A program made the position numbers and the translations under genes. From positions 1 to 64,000 of the forward strand of contig NZ_CP047045.1 in NCBI RefSeq assembly GCF_009792355.1: DNA of 64,000 bases, in the 5' to 3' direction. Source of the stretch: Terricaulis silvestris (GTDB taxonomy: Bacteria > Pseudomonadota > Alphaproteobacteria > Caulobacterales > Aquidulcibacteraceae). Every line of letters starts with the position of its first letter. Positions within the stretch are counted from its first letter, which is position 1. Positions 8,180 through 14,375 of the stretch are shown here, piece by piece. The notes beneath the pieces were generated by a model that was given only the letters and a program-made list of their open reading frames with translations, was not told the DNA's origin and did not search any database.

Positions 8180-10714
<2,535 letters not shown>

Positions 10715-10758
10715 GAAGCCATCGCTCCGAACTCCGCCCGCAACTCAACGTCATTCGT

Positions 10759-11325
10759 CTACGTTGGTAGGTCGAGGTCAAATTGAAGCTGTGCGCGTTG
10801 CGCGCGATAGAGGTCAGCAACGTCTCTCCCAAGATTGCTTTCCCAACTCAGTGGCAGCGAGTGCAGGCCACCGGGATACGAACGATCTAGTAGCTCCACC
10901 AGACCAGAGATCTTGTACCTCTTCGAGCCAAGCATTTCCTGCTCCGAGAGGAGGATATTTGGAGAACGCGAGGTCATCGACTGCAGGAAGGAGTTCGGCG
11001 ACGCCTCGCATCGCAAGAGGAAAAACTGAAGTTCGTATGCCACAAGATCGCGCTTCGACTGCGAATACACGGGGCCATGCTCAAGCTCGGTAGTAAGCGG
11101 GAACAGGTTGAGCCCCGGCCTTTTTCGCAATTGGGGCACTTCCTCAAGCATTTCTCTATGAGCCGTTCGAGCGAGGCTATCGCGATCACGCTGCTCCTCG
11201 TGCCCACCGACAAAGTTTATGTCGTGCCACTTCTTGCTCCTTCTCATGAGGTAGAGCGCCTCGGTGCCCGCGAGGAATTTTGCGACCACAAAGCCGCACC
11301 GTGACCGTCTTGGTTCGCCGTTCAT
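10759..11325 (-). CDS. Nudix-like hydrolase, second gene of kinase/Nudix operon
   Basis: A 188-aa protein with a recognisable but imperfect Nudix box: GGHEEQRDRDSLARTAH followed by REMLEEVP. The REUxEE core that binds metal is intact, while the preceding Glu is Asp, the spacing from GG is longer and the trailing Gly is Pro. Nudix enzymes cleave nucleoside diphosphates linked to another group. The gene starts 16 nt after the upstream kinase gene stops, on the same strand, so both are probably one transcript. Base composition is lower in GC than the flanking genes, suggesting acquisition. The substrate cannot be told from sequence. Confidence 0.6.
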   Translation of the reverse strand: MNGEPRRSRCGFVVAKFLAGTEALYLMRRSKKWHDINFVGGHEEQRDRDSLARTAHREMLEEVPQLRKRPGLNLFPLTTELEHGPVYSQSKRDLVAYELQFFLLRCEASPNSFLQSMTSRSPNILLSEQEMLGSKRYKISGLVELLDRSYPGGLHSLPLSWESNLGRDVADLYRAQRAQLQFDLDLPT

Positions 11326-11341
11326 CTCGCACCCAAACTCA

Positions 11342-12664
11342 TCACGAAAAAACCGACCTTCCCTTCAGAATCGCACGGGACCAACTTTCTAGCGCAAGTT
11401 CTTCCACCCGGGCATCTAGTTCGTCCCAACTGGTGAATCGACCAGTGAGATCATGCCCTCTGCCGCGTGCCCTACGAAACTCTTTCTTTCGGAGATCAGT
11501 TGCGGTGTGGACGTTGTCGATTTCTACCTGAAAGATGACGCCGAAATGCTTGCTGCTGTGAGGCTCGTCCGGATCCCAACAATATCCCTTCACGTTCGTT
11601 GCAAATTCTCGACTGAGGAATAGAGAGCGCATTAGTCTATCCAGCAATGCAGCCTTAAGTAGAGGTTCTCCGCTTTGGCCGTCCACTTTCGAGACGTGCG
11701 TTCCCTGCCACACGGTGGCCTTGCCAAAGAGCTTCGACTTCGGATCATTCTCCTTACGTTGAAAGATAAAGACGGTGTCTTTCGATGTCAGCACCCCTGC
11801 AGGAATAATTTGAACCACACTTTCCGTATTCTCGGCGTCAGCGCGGCGCATATAGGTGCCGTGTTGCCGAATACACTCAATCGCCACCTCAACGGAACTC
11901 GCGCTGAAGGAGCCGCCATCTTCAAGTGGGATTTTCTCGATCTCTTCCCGTGGCACGACGAGGATCTCGGGGTTTAGAAATTCCTCAAGGCAATCGACAA
12001 TGTTGTTCGCAAGGTCTGCGTTGGACTCTCGGACGCTGCTACTGCCCGACGTATCTAGGCTCAAAATTTTCGGGAAGTCTTTCTCGTACTTGTCGGTCGC
12101 CGTTCGGACAGAACGCGTGATGGCGTTCAGGACGTCTGTATTCATAATGCTGCCGGGCTTCTTTGTAATTCGCTGCGCAACTTCGCGTTTCATCGCGGTG
12201 TCGGCATCAACGCTCATGACAATACTCAAGTCGATCAGCGAGCGCCACCGCTCCAAGAGCAGGAACGCTTCTATCGTGTCCGCCTCTTCTTGAGTCAATT
12301 CTCCTCGCTCTCGTTGGAGGAGTAGCCAGACAAGTGAGTCAAATATCCCTCGGTCGACAATAATGATGTCGGTGTCTGTCTCAATGTTCTCCAGCAACTC
12401 GGCCAACATCGATGTGGCACACCAGGTATTGAAGAAGAGATGCCCCTTCATGGGTATCGGGCACTGAGCCGCTCGCTCAGAGAGAATGTGAACTCGGAAG
12501 TTCTGACGTGAGAAGAAGTGTCGGACTGCCTCAACGGCCGTGCTCTTGCCGGCTTTGGGTGTGCCGGCGAACTCAATCACAAACGCTCTCGCACCGTATC
12601 TGAGATGCGAATGAACTTTGACCGCTTTCGTTTCCAGCGCGGTGACTTTATCGTCGATCGACAT
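11342..12664 (-). CDS. P-loop nucleotide kinase-like protein with C-terminal Nudix-like domain
   Basis: A 440-aa two-domain protein. I start it at the ATG at 12664, with AGAGG 5 nt upstream; an upstream in-frame codon at 12820 adds an unlikely tail. Residues 28-42 form a Walker A (GTPKAGKST), and IIIVDRGIFDS (101-110) resembles the DR motif of thymidylate and deoxynucleoside kinases, with a basic lid-like stretch near 155-170. Residues about 275-410 look Nudix-like (VFIFQRKEN, then WQGTHVSKVDG) but lack the REUxEE catalytic core (DRLMRSL instead). The tail may therefore bind rather than cleave. Lower GC than neighbours (about 52% on one line counted, 12301-12360). Function unknown; a role in nucleotide sensing or modification is inference. 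Confidence 0.65.
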   Translation of the reverse strand: MSIDDKVTALETKAVKVHSHLRYGARAFVIEFAGTPKAGKSTAVEAVRHFFSRQNFRVHILSERAAQCPIPMKGHLFFNTWCATSMLAELLENIETDTDIIIVDRGIFDSLVWLLLQRERGELTQEEADTIEAFLLLERWRSLIDLSIVMSVDADTAMKREVAQRITKKPGSIMNTDVLNAITRSVRTATDKYEKDFPKILSLDTSGSSSVRESNADLANNIVDCLEEFLNPEILVVPREEIEKIPLEDGGSFSASSVEVAIECIRQHGTYMRRADAENTESVVQIIPAGVLTSKDTVFIFQRKENDPKSKLFGKATVWQGTHVSKVDGQSGEPLLKAALLDRLMRSLFLSREFATNVKGYCWDPDEPHSSKHFGVIFQVEIDNVHTATDLRKKEFRRARGRGHDLTGRFTSWDELDARVEELALESWSRAILKGRSVFS

Positions 12665-12881
12665 GGGCGCCTCTGTCTGAACTTGGCATTCAGTACTCCG
12701 ACCCGGTCGTTCTCGCAAACCCCGGCAGACGGCGATAGAGCGATGGGCCGCCGCGGAGTCGAGAAATCTCGATGCATCACGTGTCCCGCGTCGGCGATAT
12801 AGCTCTGCTGCCACATGCACCGAACGCGGGGATAGATTGAAGCCAATCCGACCGGGTCCGCCGCGCGCTTAAGCTCCGCGC

Positions 12882-14375
12882 ATGACTGACGAAATCAAAC
12901 TCAAGGGCACCATCACCAAACGTCTGCATCATAGTCCGGAAGTCTGGGCGCAGGCGAAGCGGGATTATCTTGCGGGCTATACGGCGTCGGCGGTTTCGGC
13001 GCATTACGGCATGAGCGTCGATGCGATCCGGAAGCGCGCGTCGAAGGAGGGGTGGTGCAAGGCGCATCACGTCGCGACGGCTGAGATTCCGCCGCCGCTG
13101 TTTCCGTTTCCGGATGACTCTCAGGCCGTGAAAACGGGGGATTCAGAATTCGCGTCGCGGTGGGATGAGATTGCGCATGCGGCGCAGCGTGCGCCGGCGC
13201 TGCCTTGGTCGACGTGGCTGTTTCAGGGTGGGCGCGGCGCCGGCAAAACGCGCGCCGGTGCGGAGTGGTTGGCGGCGCGGGCTGAGGCGGCGCCTGGTAT
13301 TTTCGCGCTGATCGGTCCGACGCAGCATGATGTGCGCGAAGTGATGGTCGATGGGCCGTCGGGCTTGCGCAATCTGCCGGGGCGGGCGCGGCCTTGGTAC
13401 GAGCGCTCGCGGCGGCGTTTGCTGTGGCCGAATGGCTCGGTGGCGTACGCGTTTTCGGCGGAGGAGCCGGAGCGCTTGCGCGGGCCGCAATTCGAGGCGG
13501 CGTGGGCGGATGAGTTTTGTATCTGGCCGCGTCCGAGCGAGACGCTGGCGATTTTGCGCATGGGGTTGCGGCTTGGCGTGGCGCCGCAGCTGGTGGTGAC
13601 GACGACGCCGAAGCCGCTGGCGGCGTTGCGGGTGCTGCGCGCGGAGGCGTCGTGCGTGATGACGCAGGCGGCGACGGTGGTGAACGCGGCGCATTTGGCG
13701 CCGACGTTTCTCGATGGGCTGCATGCTTTGTATGGCGGCACGCGGTTGGCGGCGCAGGAGCTGGAGGGGCTGCTGGTCGATGGCGATGGCGCGCTGTGGC
13801 GTGCGGGAGACTTGGCGCGGGTGCGTGGGGCGCGGCCACCGGCGTTGGAGCGCGTGGTGGTGGGGGTTGATCCGCCGGCGGGTGCGGGTGGCGCTGCGTG
13901 CGGGATCGTGGTGGCGGGGCGGAGTGGTGCGCGCGCTGTTGTGCTGGCGGATCGAAGTGCTGCGGGGCTGTCGCCGCTTGGGTGGGCGACGCGGGTGGCG
14001 GAGGCGGCGCGGGAGTTTGGCGCGCACGAGATTATCGCGGAGGCCAATCAGGGCGGCGACATGGTGCGCGCGACGTTGGCCTCGGCGGGCGCGCCGTGCG
14101 CGGTGCGGCTGGTGCACGCGTCGCGTGGCAAGCGCGCGCGGGCGGAGCCGATTGCGGCTTTGTACGAGCAGGGGCGCGTGACGCATGCGGGCGCGTTCGT
14201 GGCGCTGGAGGAGGAATTGTTGGCGCTCGGTGTGAGTGAGAGCGAAGGCTTGCTCGATCGCGCCGATGCGTTGGTCTGGGCGCTGACGGCGCTGATGCTG
14301 GGCCCGCCGCCGAGTGAAGGGCCGCGGATACGGGGCTTTGATCTGGCGCCGTTTCCGCGTGGGTTGTCGGGATAG
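12882..14375 (+). CDS. Terminase large subunit, GTA/phage type, with N-terminal HTH
   Basis: A 497-aa DNA-packaging motor. Residues 20-60 look like a helix-turn-helix (AGYTASAVSAHYGMSVDAIR), as in small terminase subunits. The ATPase domain follows, with Walker A GGRGAGKT (116-123) and Walker B AAWADE (D210, E211). The C-terminal RNase H-like nuclease has acidic motifs VVGVDPPAG, IIAEANQGGD and LLDRADALVWA. It resembles terminases of alphaproteobacterial gene transfer agents and related prophages. No portal, capsid or tail gene is near, so it is either an isolated member of a dispersed GTA gene set or a remnant. The coding strand is very G-rich with many GCG, TTG, GTG and GGG codons. Confidence 0.85.
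   Translation: MTDEIKLKGTITKRLHHSPEVWAQAKRDYLAGYTASAVSAHYGMSVDAIRKRASKEGWCKAHHVATAEIPPPLFPFPDDSQAVKTGDSEFASRWDEIAHAAQRAPALPWSTWLFQGGRGAGKTRAGAEWLAARAEAAPGIFALIGPTQHDVREVMVDGPSGLRNLPGRARPWYERSRRRLLWPNGSVAYAFSAEEPERLRGPQFEAAWADEFCIWPRPSETLAILRMGLRLGVAPQLVVTTTPKPLAALRVLRAEASCVMTQAATVVNAAHLAPTFLDGLHALYGGTRLAAQELEGLLVDGDGALWRAGDLARVRGARPPALERVVVGVDPPAGAGGAACGIVVAGRSGARAVVLADRSAAGLSPLGWATRVAEAAREFGAHEIIAEANQGGDMVRATLASAGAPCAVRLVHASRGKRARAEPIAALYEQGRVTHAGAFVALEEELLALGVSESEGLLDRADALVWALTALMLGPPPSEGPRIRGFDLAPFPRGLSG

Follow-up and report, generated by a model that had tools for sequence, protein, structure and literature searches.

Two adjacent genes were studied in a stretch of 64,000 nucleotides (nt) from Terricaulis silvestris (assembly GCF_009792355.1, contig NZ_CP047045.1, positions 1-64,000); in what follows, the window means this whole stretch. 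Gene 1 (11342-12664, minus strand, 440 amino acids (aa)) codes for a fusion of a P-loop kinase domain, similar to deoxynucleoside and thymidylate kinases, with a Nudix-fold tail that is degenerate at its catalytic motif. Gene 2 (10759-11325, minus strand, 188 aa), lying downstream of gene 1 after a spacer of 16 nt, codes for a separate Nudix protein. Together they fill the interval bounded by gyrB (8252-10714, its stop at 10714) on one side and by terL (12882-14375, plus strand) on the other, both of these named by eye. The two open reading frames (ORFs), their motifs, layout and spacing were as an earlier note on this DNA had described them, and that observation is confirmed.

The two Nudix parts and the kinase domain

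The tail of gene 1 (residues ~232-434, 11363-11971, on the minus strand like every feature of the two genes given below) resembles TM1382 (PDB 3e57), a putative Nudix hydrolase. The match was found with phmmer (E 6.7e-4), by profile (E 6.7e-8 with 4 rows, 1e-13 with 5 rows) and, on a low-confidence model, by Foldseek (E 1.4e-6); the tail also matched phrog_8902 (E 3.5e-13). The structural comparison, set beforehand as the refutation test of the Nudix fold that the earlier note had claimed for the tail, gave a match to the Nudix structure 3e57. As also claimed there, REUxEE is missing: in the degenerate Nudix box (residues 321-348, 11621-11704), GTH is found for GGH and DRLMRS occupies the REUxEE columns.

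Eleven such tails were aligned. Both motifs are lost in 4/4 fusions of the group that we call type A, i.e. that of the window and three homologues from other genomes (DRLMRS, KRIARS, DHIARY and GRIAQS). At the three catalytic-glutamate columns these tails carry R/R/H/R, R/R/R/Q and S/S/Y/S, two of the three positions holding mostly basic residues. In the other 7/11 tails, both motifs are intact: two kinase-Nudix fusions of type B, three stand-alone proteins, of which two are from phages and one is from a plasmid, and two fusions to a HARE-HTH domain. The nine remaining stand-alone records found by tblastn with gene 1 have kept GGH and RELEEE, and the box is intact in 16/16 outside records (2 fusions, 12 stand-alone phage or plasmid records, which amount to only 9 distinct match parts, and 2 HARE-HTH fusions). 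Since the boxes are intact in all outside relatives, loss of catalysis in type A is the simpler direction of change. In an unrooted FastTree of seven kinase domains, the four type A members stand apart from types B and C with a support of 1.0. As the tail persists at full length in all three complete type A members, its retention probably has a reason other than hydrolysis.

The two HARE-HTH fusions (L005:1486-2442 and L058:780-1778; domain identified by Pfam) join HARE-HTH to an intact TM1382-like Nudix domain, and in L005 the ORF following the fusion codes for a membrane-like protein with no Pfam match. They possibly represent another conflict-related architecture of the same Nudix family. 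When gene 1 was searched by tblastn in plasmid and phage records, the matches were relatives of the tail only (5 plasmid and 7 phage records), and a further search of this kind gave the same result with 2 records. The 12 stand-alone records (L007, L008, L009 and L064-L072) are phrog_8902-like Nudix proteins from phages and Bacillus plasmids.

Gene 2 retains the catalytic core, in agreement with the earlier note. Its Nudix box, GGHE...REMLEE (residues 40-62, 11140-11208), includes R57, E58, E61 and E62, which are invariant in 3/3 members of the gene 2 family, that of the window included. The protein passed the gathering threshold of PF00293 narrowly (22.7 versus 21.1 bits), a PF00293 match at E up to 0.1 was obtained for 2/3 members, and NCBIfam gave no match for any of the three. 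With the spacing of the canonical Nudix box as a yardstick, the distance from GG to RE in gene 2 is longer by 2 residues. Gene 2 could not be established as a close copy of the tail: hhalign gave a probability of 3.6, its match falling on the Nudix box, and BLASTP an E value of 0.013.

In the kinase domain of gene 1 (residues ~1-225, 11990-12664), the two motifs that the earlier note had named for its kinase-like domain are both present, namely the Walker A sequence GTPKAGKST (residues 34-42, 12539-12565) and the pair D104-R105. Upon alignment of seven kinase domains, the window included, GxPKxGK, E63 and D104-R105 were invariant in 7/7, and DRGxFD (residues 104-109, 12338-12355) was kept in all of them. 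These correspond to the Walker A motif, the acidic residue after strand 2 (E63) and the DR motif of deoxynucleoside/thymidylate-type P-loop kinases. Across the six aligned kinase-Nudix fusions (window included), C68, P69, I70, K73, F78, N79 and W81 are conserved, within the family signature CPIPMK...FNTW (residues 68-81, 12422-12463).

Family libraries recognised this domain weakly. The Pfam family AAA_28 was matched below its cut-off (E 3.6e-4, 21.2 versus 27 gathering bits), and the score for the dTMP kinase family was 13.3 bits where 83.25 are required. No adenylyltransferase domain was present among the Pfam, NCBIfam and PDB matches of gene 1. A Foldseek search with the AlphaFold model of gene 1, which was built on a 4-row alignment and is of low confidence (mean predicted local distance difference test (pLDDT) 57), retrieved the deoxyadenosine kinase 2jat (E 2e-4) and the thymidylate kinase 3hjn (E 5.6e-4); among viral models, matches such as A0A898KBM6 (E 5.9e-8) were obtained. 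In the PDB search, a polyphosphate kinase 2 (3czp) had a better rank than the deoxyadenosine kinases but superposes badly (root-mean-square deviation of 20.9 Å).

Relatives in other genomes and on viral contigs

In the search for type A relatives, a collection covering 84,980 species was scanned once with six exact patterns of 8 residues each, a strict procedure that sets a lower bound. At least three long gene 1 homologues were found, all from metagenome-assembled genomes whose names may be wrong: L002 (named Afipia sp., 58%), L003 (RBG_13_61_14, 54%) and L004 (named Alphaproteobacteria, 50%), the contig of the last ending inside gene 1. A gene 2 homologue lies directly downstream in L002 (13 nt on, 38% identity) and in L003 (4-nt overlap, 39% identity). 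The homologues are paired in both genomes where the two genes can be seen, and the lack of conserved pairing that the earlier note had named as refuting was not found; with the adjacent genes recurring in these two genomes, the arrangement is more than chance.

The occurrence of the pair is patchy. Gene 1 was found in 2/385 genomes of the class (its own and one tail-only match), in 1/398 of the phylum (its own) and in 1/61 relatives (its own), with 0/29 among the other genomes of the genus. Around L002, it was present in 1/29 genomes of the genus (itself) and in 3/351 of the family (itself, one distant full-length homologue and one tail-only match); around L003, in 1/3 of the phylum (itself); around L004, in 1/14 and 1/383 (itself in both). 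These samples overlap and the counts are not additive. Gene 2 was detected in 1/337 genomes of the class, its own, and hence in none of the 336 others. In plasmid and phage records, tblastn revealed no homologue of gene 2, and no useful match was obtained on viral contigs with the type A kinase and gene 2 as queries.

In type B, the kinase is fused to a Nudix domain whose box is intact. The first member, L057, came from the family search around L002: it codes for a 464-aa fusion with 32% identity to gene 1 (GGH, REVKEE), and its gene adjoins, and possibly overlaps, that of a 179-aa hydrophobic protein. No Nudix gene is found beside the fusion in its immediate neighbourhood, to which the search of this genome for gene 2 was confined. 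The second member, L059, was obtained from a scan of viral contigs with a widened alignment and lies on an 11.8-kb contig (1-11846). It carries the same two genes, an intact fusion (29% identity to gene 1; GGH, RELKEE) and a hydrophobic protein, again with no Nudix gene beside the fusion. The two fusions are 48% identical and the two hydrophobic proteins 31%; for the L059 protein a hydropathy window predicted 4 membrane segments, for its L057 counterpart 2. A search with the type B membrane protein found L059 alone, the L057 protein gave no useful match on viral contigs, and tblastn of the intact fusions and of the kinase-only protein described below gave no useful match in plasmid or phage records.

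When 8/13 non-overlapping ORFs of L059 were scanned with PHROGs, an integrase, a major head protein/protease, a portal protein, TerL, TerS and a replication initiation protein were recognised, the fusion itself being recognised through its Nudix tail. No phage-tail gene was seen among these 8/13 ORFs, on a contig which may be incomplete. The gene set resembles that of a capsid-forming phage satellite. The L059 TerL, which lies beside the fusion, belongs to the terminase family phrog_15 and has the opposite orientation; its proximity was treated as a coincidence.

In type C, L060 and L061, two viral-contig stretches of 20.6 kb that come from different metagenomes, have the same sequence and hold other ORFs that look phage-like by eye, code for a kinase homologue of 226 aa with no Nudix tail. 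In L060, an HD protein, a second protein predicted to have one membrane segment, and the kinase follow one another on the same strand, the kinase gene overlapping that of the membrane protein by 8 nt. The HD protein best matched 7qoe, an HDc-domain protein (E 1.4e-43), then 7qoc (E 4.9e-26) and MESH1 (E 1.8e-13), the last two being alarmone hydrolase/synthetase entries. On the thin evidence of this one instance, L060 would again combine a kinase, a pyrophosphate hydrolase and a membrane protein, the hydrolase being of a different fold.

Both the tight two-gene operon and its patchy occurrence would suit a toxin-antitoxin system, in which the kinase would either produce a toxic nucleotide or use up a nucleotide, and the Nudix protein would serve as a detoxifying, enzymatic antitoxin; some hydrolase is indeed co-encoded in all readable loci (window, L002, L003, L057, L059 and L060). 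This explanation seems to us quite improbable: L057 and L059 carry kinase and hydrolase in a single polypeptide, and the persistence of a dead tail would not be expected. The presence of relatives on two kinds of viral contig raises another explanation, that of a tool used by phages and satellites for counter-defence or in superinfection, which would destroy or modify an immune nucleotide of the host, the chromosomal copies being remnants of past elements. Degradation of immune signals has been proposed as a role of phage Nudix domains (PMC9503650). The chromosomal copies are, however, open reading frames with no co-inserted phage genes, as judged by eye, and signal degradation needs no kinase; we hold this explanation to be slightly less probable still.

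The gyrB-terL spot and its cargo

The composition of the gene pair differs from that of its flanks, as the earlier note had pointed out. The guanine-cytosine (GC) content of the 1906-nt pair region is 0.537, for 0.638 in the flanks, and is the minimum among windows of 1906 nt stepped every 50 nt (median 0.641). In third-position GC, the two genes rank second and sixth lowest among 54 long ORFs, a list which includes non-gene ORFs. All six loci measured, a set that excludes L004, are richer in adenine and thymine than their surroundings. Besides the window, the GC contents of locus and surroundings are 0.453 and 0.619 for L002, 0.400 and 0.618 for L003, 0.369 and 0.714 for L057, 0.463 and 0.620 for L059, and 0.551 and 0.629 for L060.

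A terL match was found in 23/30 genomes of the same genus, its own included, and the stretches around the best match from 9 of the other terL-bearing genomes were compared with the window. Both gyrB and terL were present in 7/9 of these stretches, 0.9 to 4.6 kb apart, and terL was found without gyrB in the other two. The stretch that holds the pair (10715-12827) had no blastn match in the nine. In comparison with the seven gyrB-terL intervals, homology of the window ends at 10707-10715, the gyrB stop codon, and resumes at 12827-12911; in L047 and L051, the point of resumption is an incomplete copy of the start of terL. With its low GC and the lack of a counterpart in seven congeneric intervals, the two-gene module looks acquired, as the earlier note had proposed.

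Other cargo occupies the spot in congeners: trypsin-like/OmpA (L045), SEC-C (L047), FRG (L049) and PIN (L051) proteins, with Y1-transposase genes in the intervals of L045, L048 and L051. The FRG protein of L049, whose gene is apparently split into two ORFs (L049:5299-6290), matches the PADLOC candidate PDC-S15 (E 3.7e-20). The gyrB-terL spot is thus one that takes up cargo, the pair being among its cargoes, which does not imply the status of a defence spot. Carriage by mobile elements or at variable spots, a feature of anti-phage defence systems, was seen both on the viral contigs and at this spot.

The earlier note had placed the pair between gyrB and an isolated terminase gene. The position holds; in congeners the terminase belongs to the spot itself and lies outside the module, and an affiliation of the pair with the terminase next to it was rejected, terL being found beside gyrB without the pair in 7/9 congeneric stretches. 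The isolated terL (12882-14375) beside gyrB recurs in congeners. In the same genome, a second terL copy (L042; 54% identical) precedes an ORF that resembles a portal gene by eye, an arrangement like that of a gene-transfer-agent or prophage cluster. The isolated copy has perhaps been domesticated.

Fragments that duplicate the ends of adjacent genes (gyrB 3' end, terL start) accompany the cargo at L045:921-1026, L046:4660-4689, L045:3596-3726, L047:5755-5892 and L051:5175-5328. In L002, a 137-nt segment repeating the 3' end of a gene that by eye is carboxylase-like (88%; 9097-9233 and 9764-9900) brackets a small cargo of two ORFs, which lies next to the kinase pair. Such partial gene ends at cargo spots, L002 included, hint that insertion follows a route by which the end of the gene is rebuilt. 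In the gyrB-terL interval of the window, Rfam revealed no element. The scans for promoters (3 promoter-like sites for 0.9 expected, none upstream of gene 1) and for terminators (1 terminator-like site for 2.4 expected) were uninformative.

Proposed function and comparison with known systems

A dead tail accompanies a separate Nudix gene in 3/3 readable loci, the window included, and an intact fused tail has no adjacent Nudix gene in 2/2. This split suggests that hydrolysis moved from the tail to gene 2. It had not been foreseen in the earlier note, whose interpretation is partly supported: the recurring module, the degenerate tail and the intact core of gene 2 are real.

We tentatively propose, with limited confidence, that the pair is a mobile kinase-plus-hydrolase module acting as a nucleotide writer and eraser in conflicts between mobile elements or between phage and host. 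One P-loop kinase family would form the core of this small, horizontally moving module and would probably phosphorylate a nucleoside or nucleotide. A co-encoded pyrophosphate-cleaving hydrolase would probably remove the kinase product or a related nucleotide, its form varying between a Nudix tail, a separate Nudix protein and, in one viral relative, an alarmone-hydrolase-like HD protein. In the window, the eraser activity would have shifted to gene 2 and the old tail would have become a pseudoenzyme, most likely binding a ligand or gene 2 and thereby regulating the kinase. Phage infection would then upset the balance, so that growth or phage replication stops, and in the relatives the small membrane protein would be the likely effector. 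The same scheme, extended to a whole, so far undescribed phage-conflict family, appears unlikely to us in its full form: the kinase would write a nucleotide signal erased by a Nudix or HD enzyme, the fused Nudix eraser of one lineage would have turned into a pseudoenzyme sensor while a second Nudix gene took over, and elsewhere a small membrane protein would be the effector.

Several observations weigh against the writer/eraser proposal. The complementarity of tail and partner rests on few cases, only two intact-tail fusions and one kinase-only operon being known, and the window version has no membrane protein. In the L004 genome, no gene 2 homologue was found at E up to 0.001, a result that is limited by the contig break inside gene 1 but speaks against universal pairing. 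The structure models are weak (mean pLDDT 57 for gene 1 and 61 for gene 2), and that of gene 2 had no PDB match at E up to 0.001, with weak Nudix entries lower down. In PADLOC-DB (2023 version), the sole match for the pair at E up to 1 was that of gene 1 to LeoC (E 0.0099, across 32 P-loop residues), gene 2 having none; of six cargo proteins from the congeneric spots, FRG gave a good match, one matched through its SEC-C motif only and four gave none. The surroundings of the pair in the window (8.0-15.5 kb) were judged from ORFs read by eye, with no defence-gene search there. Finally, stand-alone tail relatives directly follow nrdF in 5/5 Bacillus plasmid records, and that of a Geobacillus phage (L007) lies near dUTPase and guanylate kinase genes.

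Such a setting among nucleotide-metabolism genes fits plain nucleotide metabolism, in which the kinase would serve to salvage an unusual nucleoside and the Nudix protein to clear damaged or unwanted nucleotides, the pair having been acquired for its metabolic benefit and having no role in conflict. The kinase domain, which is closest to deoxynucleoside and thymidylate kinases, points the same way, and because of the 5/5 plasmid relatives following nrdF this explanation is rated slightly higher, and the writer/eraser proposal slightly lower, than they would otherwise be. Salvage or pool sanitation, a serious rival that we nevertheless regard as somewhat unlikely, would not lead one to expect the patchy occurrence, the pairing with a retained but dead tail, or the predicted membrane protein of the relatives. 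If the writer/eraser proposal is true, a kinase-made nucleotide signal joins those of phage defence, and the family offers a traceable case of a fused domain losing catalysis while a separate copy of the activity arises alongside, with sister forms intact. If it is false, there is still an uncharacterised, patchily spread pair of nucleotide enzymes that current family libraries barely recognise.

The earlier note knew of no described system of this layout, and our searches agree. The module is absent as a system from Pfam, PADLOC, NCBIfam and PHROGs; a PADLOC-listed system (CBASS, Clover or other) was rejected, since no signature proteins were found beyond the LeoC P-loop match. In the literature, no kinase-Nudix fusion system was described in the titles and opening parts of abstracts among the matches listed, nor was this layout described in the available parts of PMC9503650, PMC7824862, PMC4974056, PMC12265719, PMC13092281 and PMC10853773.

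TM1382 and phrog_8902 are like the gene 1 tail in sequence, and TM1382 also in fold. TM1382, however, stands alone, with an intact REVNEE and no kinase, whereas the gene 1 tail is fused and degenerate. A search for papers on TM1382, phrog_8902 and COG4112, the last presumably linked to the TM1382 family, found none. The deoxynucleoside and thymidylate kinases (2jat, 3hjn; AAA_28) share with gene 1 the fold match and the P-loop/DR layout; gene 1 differs from them by an AAA_28 score below the cut-off, its own CPIPMK...FNTW segment and the Nudix fusion.

Clover, with the dGTPase CloA and the nucleotidyltransferase CloB, is a two-gene phage defence working through activating and inhibiting nucleotides (PMC12265719); its enzymes differ from the kinase-Nudix pair, and the words kinase and Nudix are absent from the main text of that paper. 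Nucleotide-kinase domains occur in defence loci (DefensePredictor, PMC13092281; DndF, PMC10853773), the word Nudix being absent from both main texts.

For the single parts of the proposal, there are precedents. Nudix breakdown and P-loop kinases both belong to nicotinamide adenine dinucleotide (NAD) salvage, in other arrangements (PMC9503650, PMC7824862): NadM joins an adenylyltransferase to a Nudix domain and NadR an adenylyltransferase to a P-loop kinase (PMC9503650), so that synthesis is combined in one protein with Nudix breakdown or with a P-loop kinase. In gene 1, by contrast, no adenylyltransferase domain was found and the kinase is joined directly to Nudix. The NUDT9H domain of TRPM2, a Nudix-homology domain, binds ADP-ribose and gates the effector with no hydrolase activity (PMC4974056), which provides a precedent for a sensor Nudix, but in an animal ion channel with an unrelated partner. 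The domains of the gene pair are thus of known kinds, and their kinase-Nudix assembly is new to the sources searched.

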